This document shows positions 4,730 to 33,056 of a DNA stretch of 38,825 nt, in pieces. How positions within the stretch are numbered: position 1 is the first letter of the stretch; every line of letters starts with the position of its first letter. A program made the position numbers and the translations under genes. A model generated the notes under the pieces. The model had not been told where the DNA came from, ran no database searches, and saw only the letters and a list, made by a program, of their open reading frames with translations. The DNA comes from an uncultured Clostridia bacterium (GTDB lineage Bacteria; Bacillota; Clostridia; TANB77; CAG-508). Where the stretch lies: positions 1 to 38,825 of the forward strand of contig CANRBK010000005.1 of the NCBI GenBank assembly GCA_947628845.1, given 5' to 3'.

Positions 4730-4775
4730 TTTTTTCTCTCCTTTGTTATACTTATTATTTCTTTTATCAAATACT

Positions 4776-4804
4776 ATTATACCATAATTTTTATATTAAT
4801 GCAA
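4776..4804 (-). promoter_or_regulatory. SigA-type promoter of the LPKTG gene
   Basis: On the minus strand TTGCAT (4804-4799), a 17-base spacer and TATAAT (4781-4776) form a good vegetative promoter. TGG just before TATAAT gives an extended -10. It lies about 50 bases before the LPKTG gene start. Confidence 0.7.
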
Positions 4805-4915
4805 CTTTTTTAAATTACTATCTAAATTTTATACTTAATATTAGTATAAGTCAATATATTTTATCATTTTTTATTTTACATTTTTATTACATTTATGTTT
4901 CATTTATATTTCTTC

Positions 4916-6007
4916 TTATACATTAAATTTAAATAATACAATATCTCCATCTTGCATTATATATTCTTTTCCTTCAGAACGAACTAAACCTTTTTCTCTT
5001 GCGGCTACCATTGATCCTTCTTTAATCAAGTCATTATATGATACAACTTCAGCTTTTATAAATCCTCTTTCTATATCTGAGTGAATCTTTCCTGCGGCTT
5101 GTGGTGCTTTTGTTCCTTTTTTTATTGTCCATGCTCTTACTTCTGGCTCTCCTGCTGTTAAAAATGACATCAAGCCTAATAAATCATAACTTCTTTTTAT
5201 TACTTTATCTAATCCTGATTCTTCTAATCCTAATGCATCTAACATTTCTTTTTTGTCATCTTCTTCTAAACTAGAAAGTTCTTCCTCAATTTTTACACAT
5301 AATGGTATTACTTCTGCTTTTTCTTTACTTGCATATTCTTTTACTTTCTTTACATTTTCTTCATTGTCTGCATTTTCTAATTGTTCTTCTGATATATTTG
5401 CAATATATAAAATTGGTTTTGTAGTTAATAAAAACATATCTTTCACTAAAATTTGTTCATCTTCGTTAAAATCTAAAGTTCTTGCTGATTTTCCTTCTTC
5501 TAGTGTTTTTAATATTTTATCCAATAAATCAATTTCTATTTGATATTTTTTATCTGCTTTTAAATTTTTTCTTGCTTTGTCTAATCTTTTATTTATTGTT
5601 TCTATATCTGCAAAAATCAATTCTAAATTTATTGTTTCTATATCTCTTATAGGATTTACACTACCATCAACATGTACAACATTTGAGTCTTCAAAGCATC
5701 TAACAACTTCTACTATTGCGTCTGTTTCTCTTATATGTGATAAGAATTTATTTCCTAGTCCTTCGCCTCTACTTGCTCCTTTTACAAGACCTGCTATATC
5801 TACAAATTCTATTACTGCATGTGTTGTTTTTTGTGGTTTATACATTTCCGTCAATTTATCTAATCTCTCGTCTGGTACTGGAACTACCCCAACATTTGGT
5901 TCTATTGTGCAAAAAGGATAGTTTGCACACTCTGCTCCGGCTTTTGTTATGCTGTTAAATAATGTACTTTTTCCTACATTTGGTAATCCTACAATTCCTA
6001 ATTTCAT
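4916..6007 (-). CDS. ychF: Redox-regulated ATPase YchF (Obg-family)
   Basis: YchF is a universally conserved P-loop protein of the Obg branch that prefers ATP over GTP and binds ribosomes. The P-loop GLPNVGKS is at residues 7-14. The switch region contains DIAGLVKGASRGEGLGN, followed by NISEEQL in place of the usual NKxD, the change linked to ATP preference. The C-terminus is the TGS-like domain ending DGDIVLFKFNV. I place the start at 6007 (MKLGIVGLP, 363 residues). An ATG four codons upstream (6019) is in frame, but the ribosome binding site GGAGG lies inside those codons and is correctly spaced only for 6007. It sits about 50 bases after thrS and is probably co-transcribed with it. Confidence 0.97.
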   Translation of the reverse strand: MKLGIVGLPNVGKSTLFNSITKAGAECANYPFCTIEPNVGVVPVPDERLDKLTEMYKPQKTTHAVIEFVDIAGLVKGASRGEGLGNKFLSHIRETDAIVEVVRCFEDSNVVHVDGSVNPIRDIETINLELIFADIETINKRLDKARKNLKADKKYQIEIDLLDKILKTLEEGKSARTLDFNEDEQILVKDMFLLTTKPILYIANISEEQLENADNEENVKKVKEYASKEKAEVIPLCVKIEEELSSLEEDDKKEMLDALGLEESGLDKVIKRSYDLLGLMSFLTAGEPEVRAWTIKKGTKAPQAAGKIHSDIERGFIKAEVVSYNDLIKEGSMVAAREKGLVRSEGKEYIMQDGDIVLFKFNV

Positions 6008-6059
6008 TTTTTCCTCCATTCATTCCATTGTACTTTTTTATTGACATTCAAAGTTTTTA

Positions 6060-8006
6060 CTAAATTTTGTCTTCAAAATCTTTATTGCCTTTTGTTTCAA
6101 CTTCATCTTTTATTTTTTCTACAAATTCATCAACTTTCATAGTTCCTAAATCCGCTTCTTCTCTAGAACGAACTGAAACCATATTTTCTTCAACTTCTTT
6201 TGCACCAATTACTAACATATATGGCACTTTTTCAAGTTGTGCTTCACGAATTTTATATCCTATTTTTTCATTTCTATCATCTAAAACAACTCTTATTCCA
6301 ATTTTATGAAGTTTCTTTTGTACTTCTTTTGCTTGAGTCTGTTGAGCATCTGTAATTGGAAGTATTTTTACTTGTGTTGGTGAAAGCCATAATGGAAATG
6401 CTCCTTTTGTTTCTTCTATTAAGAAGCACATAAATCTATCAAATGATCCTAGTATAGCTCTATGAATTACTACTGGTCTATGTTTTTCTCCATCTTCTCC
6501 TATATATTCAAGCTTAAATCTTTCTGGTAATAAGAAGTCTAATTGACAAGTTGAAACTGTTACGTCATGTCCAACTGCTGATTTTAATTGAACATCTAAT
6601 TTTGGTCCGTAAAATGCTGCTTCTCCTTCTGCTTCATAGAACTTTACTCCTAGTTCTGTTAATATTTCTCTTAATTGTCCCTCTGCTTTTTCCCACATTT
6701 CATCATCATCAAAATATTTTTCTTTATTATTTTTGTCTCTTAAAGATAATCTGAATTCATAATCTTTAAATCCAAAATCTCTATATACTGATAATATCAA
6801 TTGTACAACTTTTCCAAATTCTTCTTTTATTTGGTCTGGTCTTACAAATAAATGTGCATCATTTTGGCACATTTCACGAACTCTTTCAAGTCCGCATACG
6901 CTTCCACTATCTTCGAATCTAAAATCATGTGCAAGTTCACCAATTCTAATTGGTAAATCTCTATATGAGTGCATTTTATTTTTATAGATTAGCATATGGT
7001 GAGGACAATTCATTGGTCTTAATACCATTTCTTCATTATCCATTTTCATTACTGGAAACATATCTTCTTTATAATGATCCCAATGTCCTGAAACTTTATA
7101 TAATTCTGTATTTGCAAGAGATGGTGTATATACATGGCTATATCCCATTTCCACTTCTTTGTCTTGAATATATCTTTCTAATAATCTTCTTACTGTTGCT
7201 CCATTTGGTAGATACATTGGAAGTCCTGAACCTACTAATGGACTTGTCATAAATAATTCTAAATCTTTTCCTATTTTCCTATGATCTCTTTGTCTAGCTT
7301 CTTCTAACTTTTGCATATATTCATCAACTTGGCTTGCTTTTGGGAATGATATAGCATAAATTCTTTGTAACATTCTATTATGCTCATCACCTCTCCAATA
7401 TGCTCCTGAAGAAGATAATATTTTTACAGCTTTAACTTTTCCTGTTTTCATTAAATGTGGGCCTGCACATAAATCTGTAAAGTCACCTTGTTTATAAAAA
7501 CTTATTTCTTCTCCTTCTGGTAAATCGTTAATTAGCTCTTGCTTATATGGTTGGCCTTCCATTAATTTTAATGCATCTTGCTTAGGTAAAGAAAATCTTT
7601 CGATTTCTATATCTTCTTTAATTATTTTTTTCATTTCTTCTTCTATTTTAGCTTTATCATCATCTGTAAAAGGCTTTTCCACATCAAAATCATAATAGAA
7701 GCCATTATCAATGCTTGGTCCTATTGCAAATTTTACATTTGGAAATAGTCTTTGAACAGCTTGTGCCATAATATGTGAAGTTGTGTGCCAATATGCCTTT
7801 TTACCATCTAAACTACTTTCGAAAGTTTCTATACTTAAATTACAATCTTCTTGTAATTTGTATCTTAAATCTTTAACTTCACCATTTACTAGTCCACAAG
7901 TAGCCATTCTTGCTAATCCTTCGCTTATTTTTTGTGCTACTTCAAATATTGAACTACCTTTTTCCACCTCGATATTTGATCCATCTTTTAATGTTACTCT
8001 AATCAT
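6060..8006 (-). CDS. thrS: Threonyl-tRNA synthetase
   Basis: ThrRS charges tRNA-Thr with threonine. The 648-residue protein has an N-terminal TGS domain (1-60); the editing domain with HTTSHIMAQAVQ near 75 and the zinc/editing DLCAGPH motif; the class II catalytic core with MNCPHHMLIYKNK, RIGELAHDFRFEDSG and the GLERVREMCQNDAHLF block; and a C-terminal anticodon-binding domain (VKILPITDAQQ to the end). GGAGG lies about 7 bases before the ATG. Expression is controlled by the threonine T-box leader at 8117-8362. A REP-like inverted repeat separates the T-box terminator from this ribosome binding site. Confidence 0.98.
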   Translation of the reverse strand: MIRVTLKDGSNIEVEKGSSIFEVAQKISEGLARMATCGLVNGEVKDLRYKLQEDCNLSIETFESSLDGKKAYWHTTSHIMAQAVQRLFPNVKFAIGPSIDNGFYYDFDVEKPFTDDDKAKIEEEMKKIIKEDIEIERFSLPKQDALKLMEGQPYKQELINDLPEGEEISFYKQGDFTDLCAGPHLMKTGKVKAVKILSSSGAYWRGDEHNRMLQRIYAISFPKASQVDEYMQKLEEARQRDHRKIGKDLELFMTSPLVGSGLPMYLPNGATVRRLLERYIQDKEVEMGYSHVYTPSLANTELYKVSGHWDHYKEDMFPVMKMDNEEMVLRPMNCPHHMLIYKNKMHSYRDLPIRIGELAHDFRFEDSGSVCGLERVREMCQNDAHLFVRPDQIKEEFGKVVQLILSVYRDFGFKDYEFRLSLRDKNNKEKYFDDDEMWEKAEGQLREILTELGVKFYEAEGEAAFYGPKLDVQLKSAVGHDVTVSTCQLDFLLPERFKLEYIGEDGEKHRPVVIHRAILGSFDRFMCFLIEETKGAFPLWLSPTQVKILPITDAQQTQAKEVQKKLHKIGIRVVLDDRNEKIGYKIREAQLEKVPYMLVIGAKEVEENMVSVRSREEADLGTMKVDEFVEKIKDEVETKGNKDFEDKI

Positions 8007-13188: not shown

Positions 13189-13822
13189 AAAATATATTTT
13201 TTATAGCCTTTTTTCTAATTCTTTGAATTGCATTATCAATAGATTTAACTGGCGTATCTAATTTTTTTGCAATAACTTCATAACTTTCACCTTGCATGTA
13301 TCTTTCTAAAACGCTTTCTTCAAATTTACTTAAAGATTTATGCATAGCATTTTGAATTTCATCAAAATACTCTCTTTTCATAATAGTTTCTAATGGATCT
13401 TCAATGGTATCCACTTTAAATGTTTCTATTAATTCTGTATTATCTTCATCATTATCATAAGCAGACGTATTTAATGATAAATACGAATTAAGAGGTATAT
13501 GTTTTTGTCTATTTGAGCTTTTTATAGCAGTTATCAATTGTCTTTCTATACATATATTAGCAAATGTTTTAAAAGTATTTTGTTTTGTATTATCAAAATT
13601 TTTTATAGCTTTATAAAGACCTATCATACCTTCTTGAATAATATCTTCTCTTTCTGCTCCAATTATAAAATATTTTCCAACCTTCGAATTTACTAAATCT
13701 TTATATTTTTCCAACAGAAAAGATAAAGCTTGTTCATCTCCTCGCTTAATTTGAGATATTATTTCTTCATCGCTTAACTCTGCATATTTATCTATTGTAA
13801 AATATATATTATTTGTTTGCAT
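13187..13822 (-). CDS. sigH: Sporulation / stationary-phase sigma factor SigH
   Basis: SigH directs RNA polymerase to early sporulation and stationary-phase genes. The 211-residue product shows region 2 with YFIIGAEREDIIQEGMIGLY and the block RQLITAIKSSNRQKHIPLN. Region 4 ends YEVIAKKLDTPVKSIDNAIQ, RIRKKAIK. Both closely follow Bacillus Spo0H. I start at ATG 13822 (MQTNNIYF), 12 bases after a GGAGG. The frame is open further up only from a TTG inside the end of the GH18 gene. The upstream GH18 gene ends about 50 bases away and may share the transcript. This is not the usual sigH neighbourhood (rlmB, secE, nusG). Confidence 0.95.
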   Translation of the reverse strand: MQTNNIYFTIDKYAELSDEEIISQIKRGDEQALSFLLEKYKDLVNSKVGKYFIIGAEREDIIQEGMIGLYKAIKNFDNTKQNTFKTFANICIERQLITAIKSSNRQKHIPLNSYLSLNTSAYDNDEDNTELIETFKVDTIEDPLETIMKREYFDEIQNAMHKSLSKFEESVLERYMQGESYEVIAKKLDTPVKSIDNAIQRIRKKAIKNIF

Positions 13823-13874
13823 ATGCCTAAAATACCTCCAAATGCACTTTTTGTAATTATATATTTGAAAATAC

Positions 13875-15578
13875 CTAAAAGTCAAGAGTTTCTTTTAAAA
13901 ATGTCCAAAAATCTTCTTTTTCCATACCTTTTGACCAAGATGCGACTCCACCTAAATCATTAGTACTTATCAATAATAGTTTTTGTTTTAAAGATTCTTC
14001 GTCCTCAATCCACATTTTCTTAATATAAGAATCTTCTTGATATTCCACATAATATTGCTTTAGGTTGTCATCCCACTTCTTCTCTACTCCACTTGGAATT
14101 ACTTTTTCAATGTTCTTAATTGGCACTGCACTTTGCTTTATAACTTGTCCAGATGTATCTTCTGTCCATAATCTTGCATATAATGGAATTGCTAATATAA
14201 TTTTTTCACTATCTATTTCTTCTGTTTTTAAAAATTTATTTAAACTTAAATTTACCCAATCATATCCTGCTGTACTTCCTGATTTATTACTTGATACACC
14301 ATATTGATCATAAGCCATAAATACTATATAATCTGCCACATCTCCGATTACATTTCTGTCAAAACATAATGACCATGTCTCTGAACCATCTGGTGCTGTG
14401 ACGTCAACAGAAACAACAAGTCCCATATTTTTCATTCTTGGTGTTAATTCAATTATAAATCTTGAATACATATCTTTATCTGCTTGTTTCATATTTTCAA
14501 AATCTATATTGACTCCATCTAAATTATACTTAATACATTCTTCAATAATGTCATTTATTAATTCTTGCCTTTTATTATAGTCATTCATAATTGTAGATGT
14601 TACTTGAAGCATTCCATCACCATCATTTTGAACCATAGGCCAAACTTTATATCCGTTTTCATGAGCCCATTCTATATATTTTTGACCTTCACTACCTATA
14701 TTTTCCTCTAAATTTCCTTTAGAATCTAAGTATAAGAATGATGGAGATACAACATTTATTCCATCTATTGTTGTTCCTGATCTATCAGGAGCATTTGCTA
14801 CTGTAGAATAATAATCCCAAACTAAATTAACTTTTCCTTCTATTTGCTTTGTTTCTTCTATGTTCTCTCTAGTAGTTACTATATTAGCTATTCTCTTAGA
14901 TTTTACGTATCCTACTTTACCATTTTCTGTTCTGATACGTGTGTATCCATCTTCTTCTGATATTACAATAACATAACTACCTTTTTTTATTCTATCTATA
15001 GTTTTACTAATAAACTTTTTAGATGATTTTACTGGTACATTTTTAGTAATAATGGCCTTCTTTTGTTCTTTAGACAATGAATCTATTGTTAATACTTTTG
15101 TTTTTTCTAAATATTTAATTTCTATTCCATATACATCCTCTAATTCTTCTATAGGAATATAAATAGTATCATCTTTTTTTATTGCACTTGCATAAGTAGA
15201 TTTACTAGAACCATTTATAGTCATTTTATTTTCTTCTAAACTAATTGTAGCTATTTTTGTATTATATGTTGTTATAATTTGATTATTGTCCTTATCTTCA
15301 TATATATATTTATCAAAGAAATTTCCTAAATCTTGTTTTGATATATATATTTCGTCATTTTCTATAAGAATGCTATTTTTTAAGTCAGAAGTTACATTTC
15401 TATTGTTTATTACCAAATTTATTGTTTTATTTTTACCTAATATTATATAGTCATTTAACTTATATCCTACTATACAAATCAATATTATTGCTAATATTGA
15501 TATAACTATCATTATAATTCTTTTCTTTTTCTTTTCTATTTGTTCTCTTGTCATTTTTACTCTGTTTGATTTTTTCAT
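13875..15578 (-). CDS. Membrane-anchored GH18 glycosidase with copper-amine-oxidase-N and SH3-like domains
   Basis: A 567-residue protein with a basic N-terminus, one membrane segment (about 20-40), a copper-amine-oxidase-N-like domain (about 52-165; YISKQDLGNFF, IYIPIEELEDVYGIEI) and a bacterial SH3-like domain (about 175-232). A glycoside hydrolase 18 domain (about 248-567) follows. The catalytic motif DGVNIDFE is at 354-361, giving Glu361 as acid and Asp359 beside it. Such proteins act outside the membrane on peptidoglycan or spore cortex (SleL/YdhD-like), or on chitin-type glycans. Its place directly before sigH favours an envelope or spore role, but that is inference. AAAGG lies about 10 bases before the ATG. 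Confidence 0.88.
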   Translation of the reverse strand: MKKSNRVKMTREQIEKKKKRIIMIVISILAIILICIVGYKLNDYIILGKNKTINLVINNRNVTSDLKNSILIENDEIYISKQDLGNFFDKYIYEDKDNNQIITTYNTKIATISLEENKMTINGSSKSTYASAIKKDDTIYIPIEELEDVYGIEIKYLEKTKVLTIDSLSKEQKKAIITKNVPVKSSKKFISKTIDRIKKGSYVIVISEEDGYTRIRTENGKVGYVKSKRIANIVTTRENIEETKQIEGKVNLVWDYYSTVANAPDRSGTTIDGINVVSPSFLYLDSKGNLEENIGSEGQKYIEWAHENGYKVWPMVQNDGDGMLQVTSTIMNDYNKRQELINDIIEECIKYNLDGVNIDFENMKQADKDMYSRFIIELTPRMKNMGLVVSVDVTAPDGSETWSLCFDRNVIGDVADYIVFMAYDQYGVSSNKSGSTAGYDWVNLSLNKFLKTEEIDSEKIILAIPLYARLWTEDTSGQVIKQSAVPIKNIEKVIPSGVEKKWDDNLKQYYVEYQEDSYIKKMWIEDEESLKQKLLLISTNDLGGVASWSKGMEKEDFWTFLKETLDF

Positions 15579-22875: not shown

Positions 22876-23898
22876 TTATTTAATTAACATTGCGTCTCCA
22901 AAGCTAAAAAATCTATATTTTTCTTTTACTGCTTCATTATATGCTCTCATAATATAATCTTTTCCTGCTAAAGCAGATACAAGCATCAATAATGTTGATT
23001 GTGGTAAATGAAAATTTGTTATCAATCCATCTATACATTTAAATTTATAGCCTGGATATATGAATATTTTGGTATCTCCTTCTATTTCTTTTACCATTCC
23101 TTCTTCATTTGCTATGCTTTCCAATACTCTGCAAGATGTTGTTCCAACTGATATAATTCTATGTCCTTGTCTTTTTGTTTCATTTATTTTATCTACATCT
23201 TCTTGTTTTATATAAAAATGTTCTGAATGCATTTCATGTTTTTCCACTTCAGTTTCCTTTACTGGTCTAAAAGTACCTATACCAACATGTAAAGTAACAT
23301 TTGCAATTTTTATTCCCTTTTGTTGTATTTTTTCTAAAAGTTCTGGTGTGAAGTGTAATCCTGCTGTTGGAGCTGCAGCTGATCCATTGTACTTTGCATA
23401 TACTGTTTGATATCTATCTCTATCTTTTAATTCTTCATGTATATATGGTGGTAATGGCATTAATCCGATTTCGTCTAATATTTCATTGAATATTCCCTTA
23501 TAATAGAATTTTACTTTTCTTGTTCCTCCTGGCATTATATCTAATATTTCCGCTTCTAATAATCCATTTCCAAATATTACTTTTGTTCCTATATGAAGCT
23601 TATTTCCCGGTCTTACAATACTTTCCCAAATATCTCCTTCTATGTTATTTAATAATAAAAATTCTACATTTGCCCCTGTTTCTTTTTTACCATATATTCT
23701 GGCTGGTATTACTTTTGTATTATTTCTAACAAGGCAGTCACCTGGTTCTAAATAATCTATTATATCTTTAAATATTTTGTGTTCAATTGTTTCTTTGTCT
23801 GTGTCTAATATCATTAATCTAGATTCATCTCTTTTTTTTATTGGCACTTGCGCTATCAATTCTTCTGGTAAATTATAATTAAAATCTGATACTTTCAT
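22876..23898 (-). CDS. queA: S-adenosylmethionine:tRNA ribosyltransferase-isomerase
   Basis: QueA transfers and rearranges the ribosyl part of SAM onto preQ1 in tRNA to give epoxyqueuosine, the step after Tgt. Hallmarks are [69 protein letters not shown], and [19 protein letters not shown]. Two ATGs are adjacent: GGAG is two bases from the first (23901) and five from the second (23898), so I choose the second. Together with tgt it makes the queuosine part of this operon. The enzymes for preQ1 synthesis are not in the window, so the cell may make or import preQ1. Confidence 0.97.
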
Positions 23899-23929
23899 CA
23901 TTACTCCATTCTTTATTGTAATTCATTTG

Positions 23930-25262
23930 TTAATGCTTTATTATGTTTTTCACATTGTTTACTACATTTTTAAATAATTGTTTTATTTCTTGTATTATAT
24001 TTTGTGGTTCTACAAATTCATCAATTTCATATGAATATTTAAAATCTGTTAATTTTGCTGGTTTTAATTTATATACTTCTTTTGGTAATCCTATATATCC
24101 TTCTGAAGTTTTAATGTTTTTATTCATATAATCATCATACCATTCTTTTAGTCCTGTTAAGTTTTTATTTCTGTATCCATATTCTTTATAATCATGTAAA
24201 GCTGGTATTTCATACTCATATTCTTCTGCTGTTCTTTCTAATGAATGTAAAAATTCGTGCAAAAATACTTCCTCTGGAAATGTATTTAGTCTTTCATCAT
24301 ACCTATATATATAACTTTTAGAAGAATTTGGTAATCTTATATTTGAATATCCTATGCCATAATAATCCATAGATCCGAAGTCCTATCCAATCATTTATTT
24401 CTATATCGTCCATATATTCATCATTTCCTAATCGTATTATTGCAAATATATGATCATAATCATTCTTGGATATTATATCTTTGATACTATCTTCTATATC
24501 TTCACTAGCAACAAAATATCCAAATTCTTCGTCATATGTTAATTTTGTTATTGGATTTGATATTTTATATACATCACAATCAGCAGTCATACTTTTTTGT
24601 GATAGTTCATATGCTGTAGTTTCAAATCTTTTTATTGTATCTTTTATTTCATAAATATCATTATCTGTCATTGATATTTTTATTTCTTTGTCATCCATTA
24701 CTACATCTGTATTTTCGAATATAAAACATGCAAATTTCCAATCTTCATTTTCAGTATGTGTTCCTTCACTTAAAGTAAAATCTGAAAACCATGCTGTTCC
24801 TGTAGATTTTCCTAAATATCCACCTAATCTAAAACCTATATCAACTTCTTCTCTATTTTTAGAATTAAATATCATCTCTATTTTTTGCCAATCTTGTGTT
24901 CCTGTAATTGCAGTTGATTTTTCTGTTGTGCCAATTATAGATATCTGCGCTCCTACTCCTGAAATATCATTTTCTGCTATTACATTTTCTGTTTTTACCA
25001 TACACGTTACTTTATATGGTGTATTTTTTTGTACTTTGACTTTTTTATAAAATGTTGCATCATTTAATTCCTCTGAATTTATTTTATAACTTGATGATTT
25101 TGAATATTTTACCTTATTATCTCTTTTAAAATCAGATGTATGTAAATTAAGTTCACTTCTTACAAAATCATTAAAATTATTAGATTTATAGAAATTAAAT
25201 GCTAATATTAGTATAACTATAATTACTAACCATGATATGATATTAGTTACTTTATTCTTCAT
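23930..25262 (-). pseudogene. Frameshifted membrane-anchored zinc metalloprotease-like gene
   Basis: Two overlapping frames belong to one gene of 1333 bases, one more than a multiple of three. The first (25262 down to about 24378) encodes an N-terminal membrane anchor (about 8-25). A carbohydrate-binding-like beta domain (YKVTCMVKTENV ... WQKIEMIFNS ... GTAWFSDFTL) and a mixed domain follow, reaching NDWIGL. The second resumes with GSMDYYGIGYSNIRLP and holds the zinc-protease motif HEFLHSLE (24259-24236). Reading +1 at CTT-CGG-A (24380-24374) restores a 443-residue protein. CGG is a rare codon here. It could be a mutation, a sequence error or recoding; I favour the first two. The ATG follows AAGGAG. 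It lies just before queA. Confidence 0.75.
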
Positions 25263-25368
25263 TTTATTCTCCTTCGTGCTATATTTAACGTTTGCTATTT
25301 TCTGCCTTTTATATTATACAATATTTGTTTTAGTTTAGCAATAAAAATAAAAATTTATCATAAATAAA

Positions 25369-25416
25369 CCCTTAAAATATATTTGTAAACTTCTTTACAT
25401 AACTATATTTTAAGGG
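25369..25416. terminator. Terminator between the prepilin-like and protease genes
   Basis: A perfect 13-bp stem (25369-25381 with 25404-25416) with an inner small hairpin. The T-run is better on the plus strand than on the minus strand, yet the gene it follows is on the minus strand. Confidence 0.65.
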
Positions 25417-25456
25417 CTTTTTCTATATTTTTAAATATTTTAATTTTCCATTTATT

Positions 25457-27040
<1,584 letters not shown>

Positions 27041-27078
27041 TGTTCTTTCACTCCTTCTTTTGTTTTTTCTTATTTCTA

Positions 27079-27107
27079 TTTATACCATATTTCAAATTTT
27101 ATTACAA
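27079..27107 (-). promoter_or_regulatory. Promoter of the prepilin-like gene
   Basis: Minus strand TTGTAA (27107-27102), 17 bases, TATAAA (27084-27079) with TGG before it (extended -10). Confidence 0.7.
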
Positions 27108-27181
27108 TATTTTTTAACAAAAATAATATACTAGAAAAATATACATATTCTGAACGATATGCAGTTTACTTAATAAAAAGA

Positions 27182-27400
27182 ATGGGAAAATTATATTATA
27201 CAGAAAGATTAAAACAAAATAAGGCTATGGGAGAATATAGAAGAACATACCAACAAAAATTTATGCAAGTTAGAAAAAATAAAGAACTAGCAAAAGATTT
27301 TGAAAATTGGAAAAAACAAGCCAAAGAAAAAATTAATCTTATGAAAAAAGGAACACTTACTGAGAATGAGGCATATGAGTGGATTTTAAAGAATAGCTAA
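27182..27400 (+). pseudogene. Probable 5'-truncated remnant, DUF6076-like C-terminus
   Basis: An ATG at 27182 would give a 72-residue basic protein (LYYTERLKQNKAMGEYRRTY, KDFENWKKQAKEKINLMK, TENEAYEWILKN). No ribosome binding site precedes that ATG. The frame stays open and protein-like for about 20 more codons upstream (ILEKYTYSERYAVYLIKR) without a start. The pattern recalls the C-terminal end of larger DUF6076-type proteins, in which a Cys-rich segment normally precedes it. I therefore read it as the tail of a gene that lost its 5' part, perhaps when the neighbouring prepilin-like gene was placed here. A real small gene remains possible. Confidence 0.45.
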
Positions 27401-27672
27401 TTATATTTAAAAAAGCAATTGTTTTTATAATTATTTTATGCTATAAATAATATATAATTGTATCATAATATTAAAATTTTGAATATATTAAAGTATCACT
27501 TTTTAAATAGCAAGGCTTTTATTTTATGAATAAATTGCAGTTAGCAATACCTAATACATGGACTAAATACTTTTTTACTAAATGAATATTGAAATAAAAT
27601 AGATACAAAGTGCGAAAGTAAAGATACTAAAATATATTGGATATATATTAATTAAAAAGGAGTTTGATAAAA

Positions 27673-29439
27673 ATGATGAATGATAGTGAAAAAAGTAAAC
27701 TATATCTTATAGGATTAAAATATTTAGAAAAAAATGAAAAATTAAAATTCAAAAATGAATTTGATTTTATAAAAACTATATATTTAGAGTCTATAAATTT
27801 TGATATTGGAAATAATATATATGAACTAAAAGAATATTTTAAGTGTAAAATAAATGAAATGGACATAGGTGATATTGCAATATATAAATCCGATAAAAAA
27901 TCATTAATAGGAATAAATTATGGTAGTGCTTTAGAAAAAGGTTTTATGTATTATGATGAAGAAAAACAAAAAGTTAAAATGGCAGAATTGCATGATAATA
28001 TTGAAGAATATAAGTTTCAATATGGCATAAAACTTAATCATAGAAATGTACAAACAATGAATCATTCATTACAATTTAACCAATATAGAAAAGAATATGA
28101 AGAATTTTATTTTAATAGCTATACTATAAAAGATGATAATGAAGCAATATATTTAGAATATGAATTTGAAATACCAAAACTTACCAAATTTAATCCAAAG
28201 TTAAAAATATTAAAAAAAGATTTTGTTTTTAAAAATATTAATACACCATATGTTCAAAATATGGTATTTCATATAGGCCTTATAGAACTTATAAGTTATT
28301 GGAAAAGTACATGTTCTCCTAAAATTATTATTAAGTGTGGGTATTTAAATGAAGAACAAATTGAGTGGTGGAAAAAGTTATATTTTTATGGACTAGGAGA
28401 ATTGTTCTACACAAACAATATAAAAATAGATATTATAAATTTTACAAATATAGAGTGTACAAATGATATAAGTATGTTTGATTATGAAAAAATTAGTGAT
28501 ACTTCTAATGGATATATAGTTCCTATAGGTGGTGGAAAAGATTCTGTTGTAACATTAGAAACACTAAAAGTTAATAGAAATGATGATTATTGTTTAATCA
28601 TCAATCCAAAACCAGTAACTTTAAAATGTGCTGAAATAGCAGGATTTAAATCAAATAATATAATCGAAATTTATAGAACTATAGATAAAAATTTAATAAA
28701 TTTAAATGAAAAAGGATTTATAAATGGACACACTCCGTTTTCCGCTATGCTTGCATTTTTATCATATTTTGTAGCATATTTGTTATCTAAAAAATATATT
28801 GCTGTATCCAATGAAAATAGTGCCAATGAGTCAAATATTATAGGTGAAAAGATAAATCACCAATACTCAAAAAGTTTTGAATTTGAATGTGATTTTGAAA
28901 AATATGCAAGCAAATATTTAAGAGCACCAATAAAGTATTTTAGCTTTTTAAGACCATTGAATGAATTACAAATTGCAAAAATCTTCTCAAAGAAGGAAAA
29001 ATATCACAATATTTTTAAAAGTTGTAACATTGGTAGCAAAGAAAAAGAATGGAAATGGTGTTGTAATTGTGCTAAATGTTTATTTACTTATACAATATTA
29101 AGTCCATATTTATACAAAGAAAAATTAGTTAGAATTTTTGGAGAAGATTTATTTGAAAAATCAAATTTACTAAATACATTTTTAGAATTAACAGGAAATG
29201 GAGAAACAAAACCTTTTGATTGTGTTGGTACTTTTGAAGAAGTAAATTTTGCTATAAGCAAGACAATTGAAAATATTGAAAAAGCAAAAATGGATTTACC
29301 TTATTTATTAAGATATTACAAAGATAATTACAAACTAATAGATACAAAAAATGATTTAACTAAGATATATAACCAAGAAAATAATTTAAATAAAGAACAA
29401 AACGATATATTAAGAAAAGAGGTATTTTCAAGTGATTAA
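27673..29439 (+). CDS. murL: MurL-type UDP-MurNAc-L-Ala-L-Glu epimerase
   Basis: MurL inverts the terminal L-Glu of UDP-MurNAc-L-Ala-L-Glu to D-Glu using ATP. The 588-residue protein has an N-terminal region of about 270 residues and then a PP-loop-like ATP site GGGKDSVVTLE (Gly286-Asp290-Ser291). The family block NESN (385-388), INHQYSKSFEFE (about 394-405) and a Cys cluster WCCNCAKC (462-469) follow. These are the segments I associate with Xanthomonas MurL; the N-terminal part is longer here. The ATG at 27673 follows AAAAGGAG at 10 bases; a TTG at 27664 is too close to that site. Its last 8 bases overlap the murD2 start. Assignment rests on motif recall plus the partner gene. Confidence 0.82.
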   Translation: MMNDSEKSKLYLIGLKYLEKNEKLKFKNEFDFIKTIYLESINFDIGNNIYELKEYFKCKINEMDIGDIAIYKSDKKSLIGINYGSALEKGFMYYDEEKQKVKMAELHDNIEEYKFQYGIKLNHRNVQTMNHSLQFNQYRKEYEEFYFNSYTIKDDNEAIYLEYEFEIPKLTKFNPKLKILKKDFVFKNINTPYVQNMVFHIGLIELISYWKSTCSPKIIIKCGYLNEEQIEWWKKLYFYGLGELFYTNNIKIDIINFTNIECTNDISMFDYEKISDTSNGYIVPIGGGKDSVVTLETLKVNRNDDYCLIINPKPVTLKCAEIAGFKSNNIIEIYRTIDKNLINLNEKGFINGHTPFSAMLAFLSYFVAYLLSKKYIAVSNENSANESNIIGEKINHQYSKSFEFECDFEKYASKYLRAPIKYFSFLRPLNELQIAKIFSKKEKYHNIFKSCNIGSKEKEWKWCCNCAKCLFTYTILSPYLYKEKLVRIFGEDLFEKSNLLNTFLELTGNGETKPFDCVGTFEEVNFAISKTIENIEKAKMDLPYLLRYYKDNYKLIDTKNDLTKIYNQENNLNKEQNDILRKEVFSSD

Positions 29440-30778
29440 TGATTTAATACAATATTTTAAAGATAAAAAAATACTTATTTTAGGATTAGGAAAAGAAGGC
29501 CAATCAACATATAAATTAATAAGAAAATATTTAAAAGATCAACATTTATATATTGCCGACAAAAAAGAAGATTTTGAGAATAGCTTTGAACTATTAAAAA
29601 AAGATAATAACATAACTTGTATAAGTGGTAAAAAATATATAGAAAATTTACAAGATTATGATATTATTATGAAATCTCCTGGAATTTCTTTTGCTTATGT
29701 AGATACTTCACAATATCTTCATAAAATTAAATCACAATTAGAATTATTATTAGAATTTTTCAACGTTTTTACTATAGGAATTACTGGAACAAAAGGAAAA
29801 AGTACAACAAGCTCATTAATATATAAAATGCTAAAAGATCAAAATATAAATAGTATATTGCTAGGTAATATTGGTGTTCCAATATTTGATTATATTGATA
29901 CTATACAAGAAGATATGACATTAGTTTTAGAAATGTCATCACATCAATTAGAATATATGGAGCTATCTCCTAATATTGCAATTTTATTAAATATTTATGA
30001 AGAACATCTTGACCATTATGAATCTTTTGAAAAATATGCTATGGCTAAATGTAATATTTTTAAATATCAAACAAAATCAGATTACTTTTTATACAATACA
30101 GATATTGAAATACTAAATAAATTAGTAAAAAATCCAAATGGAATCACTTATAAAGTAAGTTTTAATGATAACTATGAAAGCAATATATATTTAAAAGAAA
30201 ATAAGATATATTTTAATGCAAATCATATATACGATAAAAATGAACCTAGAAACTTGCTTGGAGATTATAATCTAAATAATATTATGTTTGTACTTGCTGT
30301 TTCAGAAATATTAAAATTAGATATAAATAAAACAAAAAAAAGTATTAGCGAATTTAAAACATTAGAACATAGATTAGAATTTGTTGGTAAATATAATGAT
30401 ATTCTATATTATGATAATAGTATCGGAACTATACCAAAGGCGACAATAGAAGCAGTAGAAGCTTTAAAATATGTTGACACATTAATTATAGGCGGAATGG
30501 ATAGAGGAATTGACAATACTGATTTTATAAACTATTTAAATAATAGTAATATTAGTAATATAATTTGTATGCCTAAAACCGGACATGATATTGCTAAAAA
30601 GCTAATCGAAGAAAAAAGATACATTGTTAATGATTTAGAAAATGCAGTTTATACTGCTAAAAATGTAACTAAAAAAGGAATGATTTGCTTATTATCTCCA
30701 GCAGCAGCAAGTTATGGCTTTTTTAAAAACTTTGAAGAAAAAGGAAATTTATATAAACAATTAGTACAAAGCACCTAA
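29432..30778 (+). CDS. murD2: MurD-family ligase, probably MurD2 (UDP-MurNAc-L-Ala--L-Glu ligase)
   Basis: A 448-residue Mur ligase with an N-terminal Rossmann-like domain (ILILGLGKEGQSTY), the P-loop GITGTKGKST (116-125), the Mg/ATP region EMSSHQLEYM, HLDHYESFEKYAMAKCNIF, LGDYNLNNI, EHRLEFVG, the GGMDRGID loop, and the LSPAAASYGFFKNFEEKGNL ending of MurD proteins. It starts with GTG (29432), 9 bases after AAGAGG, and overlaps murL by 8 bases. Beside MurL the substrate is expected to be L-Glu, so this would be MurD2 and not a second D-Glu-adding MurD. The stereochemistry cannot be read from sequence alone. A short hairpin (30768-30785) covers the stop codon and the terminator at 30831-30879 follows. 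Confidence 0.85.
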   Translation: MINDLIQYFKDKKILILGLGKEGQSTYKLIRKYLKDQHLYIADKKEDFENSFELLKKDNNITCISGKKYIENLQDYDIIMKSPGISFAYVDTSQYLHKIKSQLELLLEFFNVFTIGITGTKGKSTTSSLIYKMLKDQNINSILLGNIGVPIFDYIDTIQEDMTLVLEMSSHQLEYMELSPNIAILLNIYEEHLDHYESFEKYAMAKCNIFKYQTKSDYFLYNTDIEILNKLVKNPNGITYKVSFNDNYESNIYLKENKIYFNANHIYDKNEPRNLLGDYNLNNIMFVLAVSEILKLDINKTKKSISEFKTLEHRLEFVGKYNDILYYDNSIGTIPKATIEAVEALKYVDTLIIGGMDRGIDNTDFINYLNNSNISNIICMPKTGHDIAKKLIEEKRYIVNDLENAVYTAKNVTKKGMICLLSPAAASYGFFKNFEEKGNLYKQLVQST

Positions 30779-30830
30779 GTGCTTTACTACTATCTTTCTA
30801 ATTAAAATTTCTTTTCTCTATATACATAAA

Positions 30831-30879
30831 TTAAAACAAAAGTATGAAAATTAAAATTAATTTCATACTTTTGTTTTAA
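30831..30879. terminator. Bidirectional terminator between murD2 and pnp
   Basis: A perfect 19-bp stem (30831-30849 with 30861-30879) with an 11-base loop; A/T-rich flanks give short T-runs on both strands. It separates the convergent murD2 and pnp genes. Confidence 0.85.
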
Positions 30880-30884
30880 TTATT

Positions 30885-33056
30885 CTATATATCTTGTTTA
30901 TCCTCTGATAATATAGCAGTTAAATTAATTCTACCTTGTTCATCGATGTCAAGAACTTTAACAGTAACTTTATCACCTACATTTAATACATCTTCTACTT
31001 TTTTAATTCTTTCTTTAGAAATCTTAGAAATATGAAGTAGTCCTTCCTTTCCATTAACTCCTAAATCAACAAAAGCTCCAAAAGTTGTAGTTCTTGTTAC
31101 TTCACCATAATAGATTCCACCAACCTCAACTTCTCTTACTATATCTTCTATCATTTCTAATGCTTGATTTGATTTTTCTGAATCATTTGAATAAATAAAT
31201 ACTTGTCCATCTTCTTTAATATCTATTTTTACTCCTGTTGCATCTATTATTTTATTGATTGTTTCTCCACCTTTACCAATAACGTCTTTAATTTTTTCTA
31301 CTTTAATTTTTGTATTTACTATTCTTGGTGCATATTTTGATATTTCTTTTCTAGGCTCTGAAATTACTGGTAACATTATATCTTCTAATATATGTTTTCT
31401 AGCAATTCTTGTTCTTTCAAAAGCTTCTTTAATTACATCATAAGATAATCCATCTACTTTAATATCAACTTGTATAGCTGTAATACCCTTTTCTGTTCCT
31501 CCAACTTTGAAATCCATATCTCCGAAAAAGTCTTCAATTCCTTGAATATCTGTTAACATTACATAGTCATTTTCATCATTTGGATTTGTTACTAATCCTG
31601 TTGAAATACCAGCAACTGGTCTTTTTATTGGAACACCTGCTGCCATTAATGATAATGTGCTTCCACATATACTTGCTTGTGATGTTGAACCATTTGAAGA
31701 TAATACTTCTGATACAACTCTTATTGCATAAGGGAATTCTTCTTCTGATGGTAACACTGGAACTAGTGCTTTTTCTGCTAATGCACCATGTCCAATTTCT
31801 CTCCTACCTGGTCCTCTTGATGGTCTTGCTTCTCCTACACTATAACTTGGGAAATTATATTGATGCATATATCTTTTTGCTGTTTCTGTATCAATTCCAT
31901 CAAGTTCTTGTTCTTCTGAAACCATACCTAATGTTGTTACTGATAATACTTGAGTTTGCCCTCTAGTAAATAAAGCACTTCCATGTACTCTTGGTAATAA
32001 ATCAATTTCACATGATAATGGTCTTATCTCGTCTAATGCTCTACCATCTACTCTTTTATGCTCATTAAATATCATATTTCTTACACATTTTTTCTGTAAT
32101 TTATAAATAGCTTCTCCTATATCTGACTTATGTTCTTCTGCTGCTTCTTCTCCAAATTTTTCGGTATATGCAGTTGCTATTTTATCAGATACTTCAGCTA
32201 CATTATTATCTCTAGTTTCTTTATCTGGTTCTTGTAATGCTTGTTTAATTTCTTCTTCAAAGTTTTTTTCTATATATTCATATACATCATGGTCAACTTC
32301 AAATGATTTATATTCAAATTTTGGTTTTCCAATTTCTTCTTTCATTTTTTGAATAAATTTGCATATTTTCTTTATTTCTTCATGTCCTGCTTTTATTGCA
32401 TCTAACATAACATCATCTGGAACTTCATTTGCTCCTGCCTCTATCATTGCAATTTTTGCTTCTGTTCCTGCAACTGTTAATGTTAAATCAGATATTTTTC
32501 TTTGTTCTTCAGTTGGGTTTATTATAATTTTTCCATCTACTAAGCCTACATTTACTGCTGCTGTTGGTCCACCAAATGGTATATCAGATATTGATAATGC
32601 TGCTGAAGCACCTACCATAGCAGCTACTTCTGGTGAGTTGTCTTGATCTACTGAAAGCACTGTTGCAACAACTACTACATCATTTCTGAAATCTTTTGGA
32701 AATAATGGTCTTAAAGGTCTATCTATTGCTCTTGATGTAAGTATTGCTTTATCACTTGGCTTTCCTTCTCTTTTTTGGAATGATCCTGGTATTTTTCCAA
32801 CTGAATATAATTTTTCTTCATAATCAACTGATAATGGGAAAAAGTCAATTCCATCTTTTGGCTCTTTTGAAGCTGTAACGTTTACCATTACAACTGTATC
32901 TCCATATCTAACCAATACGCTTCCATTAGCTAGTCCTGCCATTTTACCTGTTTCAAATACAAGTTTTCTTCCTGCTAATTCTGTTTCATAAGTTTTAAAC
33001 ATACTATTTTCTTCCTTTCCTTCTTTTTTACTCCATTTTTTCATAAATTCAAACAT
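30885..33056 (-). CDS. pnp: Polyribonucleotide nucleotidyltransferase (PNPase)
   Basis: PNPase degrades RNA 3' to 5' by phosphorolysis as a trimeric ring. The protein has two RNase PH-like domains (SFQKREGKPSDKAILTSRAI, RPLRPLFPKDF; RGQTQVLSVTTLG, RPSRGPGRREIGHGALAEKA), a helical linker, a KH domain (IKDVIGKGGETINKIID) and an S1 domain (YYGEVTRTTTFGAFVDLG). From ATG 33056, with GGAGG 8 bases before it, the product has 723 residues. The usual PNPase start would be the internal ATG at residue 19 (MFKTYETELAGRKL), which also has an AAGGAAAGGAAG site. So the N-terminal 18 residues may be optional. The structured leader at 33060-33140 may be used for self-control. Confidence 0.97.
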   Translation of the reverse strand: MFEFMKKWSKKEGKEENSMFKTYETELAGRKLVFETGKMAGLANGSVLVRYGDTVVMVNVTASKEPKDGIDFFPLSVDYEEKLYSVGKIPGSFQKREGKPSDKAILTSRAIDRPLRPLFPKDFRNDVVVVATVLSVDQDNSPEVAAMVGASAALSISDIPFGGPTAAVNVGLVDGKIIINPTEEQRKISDLTLTVAGTEAKIAMIEAGANEVPDDVMLDAIKAGHEEIKKICKFIQKMKEEIGKPKFEYKSFEVDHDVYEYIEKNFEEEIKQALQEPDKETRDNNVAEVSDKIATAYTEKFGEEAAEEHKSDIGEAIYKLQKKCVRNMIFNEHKRVDGRALDEIRPLSCEIDLLPRVHGSALFTRGQTQVLSVTTLGMVSEEQELDGIDTETAKRYMHQYNFPSYSVGEARPSRGPGRREIGHGALAEKALVPVLPSEEEFPYAIRVVSEVLSSNGSTSQASICGSTLSLMAAGVPIKRPVAGISTGLVTNPNDENDYVMLTDIQGIEDFFGDMDFKVGGTEKGITAIQVDIKVDGLSYDVIKEAFERTRIARKHILEDIMLPVISEPRKEISKYAPRIVNTKIKVEKIKDVIGKGGETINKIIDATGVKIDIKEDGQVFIYSNDSEKSNQALEMIEDIVREVEVGGIYYGEVTRTTTFGAFVDLGVNGKEGLLHISKISKERIKKVEDVLNVGDKVTVKVLDIDEQGRINLTAILSEDKQDI

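Follow-up and report, generated by a model that had tools for sequence, protein, structure and literature searches.

The 38,825-nucleotide contig CANRBK010000005.1 of an uncultured Clostridia bacterium from the gut (assembly GCA_947628845.1), analysed over its whole length and called the window here, carries two overlapping genes, murL and murD2. With a probability of about 0.86, this pair is a horizontally acquired route to the D-glutamate (D-Glu) of peptidoglycan and stands in for a missing glutamate racemase (MurI). The direct evidence consists of the identity and order of the genes, the absence of known D-Glu enzymes from the genome, the exclusion of MurI across the family, the existence of genomes with MurD2 only, the inserted position of the pair, and its closest relatives in other genera. 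Judging from the specificity residues, a predicted fold and the characterised enzymes of Xanthomonas, Micromonospora and Salinispora, MurD2 would add L-glutamate (L-Glu) and MurL would then epimerise the L-Glu product while converting ATP to AMP.

The reference system is MurL-MurD2 of Xanthomonas oryzae (XOO_1319/XOO_1320; Feng et al. 2017, reviewed in PMC8788868). In Xanthomonas, both reactions have been shown: MurD2 adds L-Glu to UDP-MurNAc-L-Ala, and epimerisation of the product by MurL costs ATP, which is cleaved to AMP. The Micromonospora and Salinispora orthologues have been confirmed (PMC8788868). The window shares with Xanthomonas the two protein families, their order, the E/R specificity residues, the overlap of the genes (20 bases in X. 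sacchari and 8 in the window) and a genome lacking MurI and D-amino-acid transaminase. It differs in its Bacillota host, in sequence (identity about 28-36% for MurL and 28% for MurD2), in retaining a canonical MurD, in a 128-residue N-terminal extension of MurL, and in its location within an insertion that is absent from a congener. The route through MurI and canonical MurD is different in that free D-Glu is made first, and family genomes with MurI have no MurL.

Identity and predicted activities of the pair

The original prediction described two overlapping plus-strand genes, the first with MurL sequence blocks and the second encoding a MurD-family ligase, and the analysis bears this out (Table 1). 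MurL matches NF041275 (E 3.6e-68) over residues 139-530, corresponding to model positions 4-392 of 447. This is the only MurL model in NCBIfam; it was built for Xanthomonadales with a curated cut-off of 700 bits, and the window protein scores 230 bits, below that narrow threshold. Across 57 MurL sequences of Bacillota and Bacteroidota origin, the GGGKDS, NHQYSK and WCxxCxKC motifs vary little or not at all, and an alignment finds all three in Xanthomonas sacchari MurL, with the tyrosine of NHQYSK replaced by tryptophan. The NF041275 match and these motifs place the protein in the MurL group and set it apart from other PP-loop families.

The N-terminus was suspected to be unusually long, and the difference is real and larger than estimated, since MurL relatives from the family begin only after the first 128 residues. 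No relative of this extension was found in Pfam, in phage records or in 120 neighbourhoods. It is probably translated, because a stop-free run of such length has a chance of only ∼2e-4 given the base composition. The inner ATG at 28057 has no Shine-Dalgarno sequence ahead of it.

The ligase matches the TIGR01087 murD model at 327 bits (cut-off 212). In a tree of 70 Mur ligases, it forms one clade with its relatives and Xanthomonas MurD2 (45 rows, support 100/98), separate from the canonical MurDs; the exact placement of Xanthomonas MurD2 is less sure than the other splits because its branch is long. At the positions equivalent to E. coli 182 and 348, 39 of the 45 MurD2 rows have the E/R combination, the window and Xanthomonas proteins among them, and the other six have D/R. 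None of the 23 canonical MurDs has E/R (N/K in 16, D/K in 6, A/R in 1). X. oryzae MurD2 carrying the double mutation E197D and R358K used D-Glu in place of L-Glu (PMC8788868). E. coli MurD accepts L-Glu after K319 is changed to threonine; this position is isoleucine in both the window and Xanthomonas MurD2, although canonical MurDs of the family can likewise have isoleucine or alanine there. Together, clade and residues predict a MurD2-type, L-Glu-specific enzyme. The search for a second MurD was also productive: an intact canonical MurD with the N/K signature lies on another contig of the same genome, 31.5% identical to the window ligase and 74% identical to its counterpart in a congener.

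A structural model of MurL was predicted from the 57 sequences. Its core has a predicted local distance difference test (pLDDT) score above 90 for most blocks, and the extension folds with low confidence. The best fold matches, QatC (Z 17.9, 316 residues), QueC (Z 13.2 and 12.5) and Cap9 (Z 12.0), stand well above all remaining ones; a sequence search of the PDB with MurL gave no detectable match. MurL is said to have no known conserved domains (PMC8788868). The model predicts a QueC/QatC-like PP-loop enzyme, and such a fold fits an ATP-driven activation of the glutamate carboxylate. MurL would adenylate the α-carboxylate of glutamate, the α proton would leave and come back, and hydrolysis would follow. 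This course, proposed by the discoverers of MurL, is judged the most likely, since carboxylate adenylation is the chemistry of QueC and MurL is predicted to resemble QueC in its fold, PP-loop and cysteines. The zinc site of QueC has a four-cysteine pattern resembling C-x11-CxxCxxC. While MurL shares a PP-loop and a predicted core fold with QueC, QatC and Cap9, along with a QueC-like cysteine pattern, those enzymes form nitriles or amides from other substrates and do not epimerise. The fold assignment gives MurL a concrete and testable mechanism.

MurI and MurL in the genome and its family

No match to TIGR00067 (murI), PF01177 (Asp/Glu racemase) or PF01063 (class-IV aminotransferases) was found in the source genome, which is 97% complete; among 14 control genomes, these models were positive in 10, 10 and 13, respectively. 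A tblastn search with murI of ten congeners detected no remnant in the window, and searching the genome's DNA with the region around murI from congener G008 turned up only scraps. Loss of murI by chance through incompleteness is unlikely, because MurL and MurI exclude each other over 195 genomes of the family.

These 195 genomes are mostly metagenome-assembled. Before weak matches were set aside, MurL was seen in 65 and murI in 101. With murI matches under the curated cut-off and one 36-bit MurL scrap removed, MurL occurs alone in 64 genomes and MurI alone in 95, the remaining 36 have neither, and no genome has the two together (Fisher P 8e-26, a value that ignores kinship). Since twelve genera hold both states, the two routes have been swapped repeatedly, in at least about twelve exchanges, none of which left a genome with both. 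The source genus is one example: MurL occurs in the source alone among 13 sampled genomes, and 10 of the 12 congeners without it have murI. The suggestion that the lineage changed a central step of wall synthesis therefore holds for this species, which gained the pair by insertion, and fails for its immediate lineage.

Canonical MurD was not found in 13 of the 64 MurL genomes and is broken (frameshifted, cut short or riddled with stops) in four others, although single frameshifts may be assembly errors. This leaves 17 genomes, spread over seven genera, with MurD2 as the sole intact MurD found, and there the pair must serve the ordinary wall. Among MurI genomes, a weak or missing MurD is rarer (7 of 95, counted by a coarser criterion; P 0.001). 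The proposal that the pair replaces both MurI and MurD is supported for MurI; its MurD half is not supported in this genome, which keeps the canonical enzyme, but would fit those 17 relatives. The murL and murD2 genes are adjacent in 36 of 40 family neighbourhoods.

Several other genes were seen. At 13190-15578, the window has a SigH-like gene that shares 55-57% identity with the SigH located directly after murI in four congeners; upstream of it, a GH18 gene carrying SH3 and copper-amine-oxidase-like domains occupies the place of murI. The window also contains SpoIIP, which together with the SigH-like gene makes spore formation by the host plausible. Elsewhere, the genome holds two MurE-like ligases (on contigs C27 and C24, one next to mraY and the other next to alaS) and MurT/GatD-like genes.

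The insertion between pnp and queA

Congener G008 shares the gene order rpsO-pnp-queA-tgt-WG-spoIIP with the window contig, and its pnp and queA are about 20 bases apart; in the window, they are separated by 6,983 bases containing murL-murD2. On this evidence, this species gained the pair horizontally through insertion. Flank identity to G008 is 84% for queA, 87% for pnp, 91% for tgt and 95% for rpsO, and about 51-52% for WG and SpoIIP. The G+C content is 24.6% for the insert, 22.3% for the pair and 26.5-28.8% for the flanks. Window MurL and MurD2 are 75-77% identical to proteins from genera g28 and g31, whereas canonical MurDs compared between these genomes share 62-67%. Neither a bounding repeat pair nor an integrase that would name the inserting element was seen.

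The rest of the insert lies between queA and murL. At 25457-27040 on the minus strand, a prepilin-like N-terminus, with an RERERERE run ahead of it, is fused to an FGE-sulfatase-like domain. Overlapping open reading frames (ORFs) at 23930-24370 and 24318-25262, in different frames of the minus strand (23930-25262), resemble a single gene interrupted by a frameshift. Upstream of murL, a 72-codon ORF scrap at 27183-27400 (plus strand) is possibly the tail of a decayed gene.

Table 1. Positions of the pair, its sequence elements and the surrounding insertion in the window
Feature	Position	Strand	Basis
murL, 588 aa; family-like core from 28057	27673-29439	+	ATG start to stop
Shine-Dalgarno AAGGAG serving the 27673 start	27657-27662	+	Sequence
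N-terminal extension of MurL, 128 residues	27673-28056	+	Absent from relatives examined; low model confidence
PP-loop GGGKDS, residues 286-291, ATP pyrophosphate-binding motif	28528-28545	+	57-sequence alignment; fold match
C451, C463, C466, C469 (C-x11-CxxCxxC), likely QueC-like zinc site	29023-29079	+	Invariance by alignment; role suggested by fold match
AGAGG, likely ribosome binding site of murD2	29418-29422	+	Sequence
Overlap of murL end and murD2 start, 8 bases	29432-29439	+	ORF coordinates
murD2, MurD-family ligase of MurD2 clade, predicted L-Glu specific, 448 aa	29432-30778	+	GTG start to stop; family match, tree, residues
Codon for E191 (E. coli D182, X. oryzae MurD2 E197), L-Glu determinant	30002-30004	+	Alignment; PMC8788868
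Codon for R358 (E. coli K348, X. oryzae MurD2 R358), L-Glu determinant	30503-30505	+	Alignment; PMC8788868
Strong inverted repeat between converging murD2 and pnp, likely shared terminator	30819-30891		Repeat search
∼7 kb insert between pnp and queA (murL-murD2, FGE-like gene, split gene)	23902-30884		Comparison with G008
queA, native flank, 84% identical to congener	22876-23901	-	Comparison with G008
pnp, native flank, 87% identical to congener	30885-33056	-	Comparison with G008

Alternative readings, distribution and significance

A number of observations weigh against the pair as the replacement for MurI. The surveyed genomes vary in completeness (68-100%), and relative G074 carries MurL together with a murI fragment (125 bits) at a contig end. 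Identity to the Xanthomonas MurL is low, and the extension, unique to this genome, could alter or disturb the enzyme. An intact canonical MurD is retained here and in some 40 MurL relatives without a recognised D-Glu source. Furthermore, 33 of the 195 relatives, some of them 97-100% complete, have canonical MurD and none of MurL, MurI, PF01177 and PF01063 (examples of family genomes without a recognised source are G011, G016, G062, G092, G174, G066 and G133). Because canonical MurD is kept without a source and these relatives have neither route, an unrecognised D-Glu source may exist in the family and possibly acts in this genome too. Both the retained MurD and the 33 relatives could be explained if D-Glu is taken up, or if it is made by a racemase from a different family, for example DapF as in Chlamydia.

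The canonical MurD, intact in this genome and in most MurL genomes, and the 33 relatives favour the strongest rival, that the pair is accessory, serving another stage or a back-up, while canonical MurD makes the main wall from scavenged D-Glu or with a non-MurI racemase. DapF is one example of the latter, as the Chlamydia enzyme has glutamate racemase activity (PMC5885031). A side role, however, does not predict the family-wide exclusion of MurL and MurI, nor does it fit the 17 genomes in which MurD2 is the sole intact MurD, and we consider it improbable. Far less probable still is a binning error that brought in the pair from another genus and left the absence of MurI unrelated. The confinement of MurL to one genome of the genus, and the closest relatives of both proteins in genera g31, g28 and g23, would suit such an error, but the genes flanking the insert most closely on this contig keep the G008 order with 84-95% identity, and the 7 kb separating pnp from queA is the sole part absent from that congener. 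Bin contamination is ruled out by this synteny and identity, and the reading as a whole is largely refuted.

The best solved fold matches, QatC and QueC, raise the further idea that MurL is a PP-loop enzyme of defence or nucleoside modification that lies beside a duplicate MurD by chance. The MurL family match by sequence, the exclusion of MurI, the constant pairing with MurD2 over two phyla and a gene order as in Xanthomonas all speak against it and leave it a very slim chance; an unrelated PP-loop protein is ruled out by the family match and the MurD2 pairing. The replacement of MurI by a horizontally acquired MurL-MurD2 pair is therefore preferred.

The pair is not an isolated oddity, as a wider scan showed. 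When the MurL alignment was run against 84,980 species genomes, at least 579 loci were confirmed. Among the matches listed, 80 loci come from Clostridia, Bacilli, Ruminococcus, Lachnospiraceae and metagenome-assembled Bacteroidota genomes, and MurD2 adjoins or stands near MurL in 79 of them. In 50 further MurL genomes of Bacillota and Bacteroidota, also among the matches listed, MurI above the cut-off was found in none. Across Bacillota and Bacteroidota, the adjacent pair is found widely in genomes that lack MurI. A match in the unverified 'Bacteriophage sp.' record MT836755.1 was rejected, because the record is a piece of bacterial DNA under a wrong label, carrying EF-G-like, MurL, MurD2 and NUDIX genes. 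On the mobilizable plasmid pPaSha1 of Pseudonocardia alni, a distant MurL homologue annotated as hypothetical (4764-6164) has no MurD neighbour, and its function may differ.

A 2018 review mentions further low-similarity MurL orthologues in a fungus, cyanobacteria and an amoeba. A 2021 review records MurL only in Gammaproteobacteria, Alphaproteobacteria and rare Actinobacteria; the route was described as confined to few genera and proposed as a narrow-spectrum drug target (PMC8788868). No open-access paper on MurL in Firmicutes or Bacteroidetes was found, and curated databases may already include some. The type of system is known; its presence in Bacillota and Bacteroidota and its repeated exchange with MurI are, to the extent that this could be checked, undescribed. 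Annotation would hide the route, since MurL falls below the cut-off of its only curated model and MurD2 passes the MurD model for D-Glu ligases. The carriers in both phyla are mostly uncultured.

More tentatively, and at somewhat under even odds, MurL-MurD2 may be a mobile and interchangeable D-Glu cassette that forms the main route in much of the gut Bacillota and many Bacteroidota and was exchanged with MurI at least 12 times within one family, with an additional unrecognised D-Glu source feeding canonical MurD both in genomes lacking either route and in MurL genomes that keep MurD. The repeated one-for-one swaps with MurI within a single family offer a natural experiment on why cells would alter so central a step in building the wall, and they predict which species of the gut would not respond to inhibitors of glutamate racemase.
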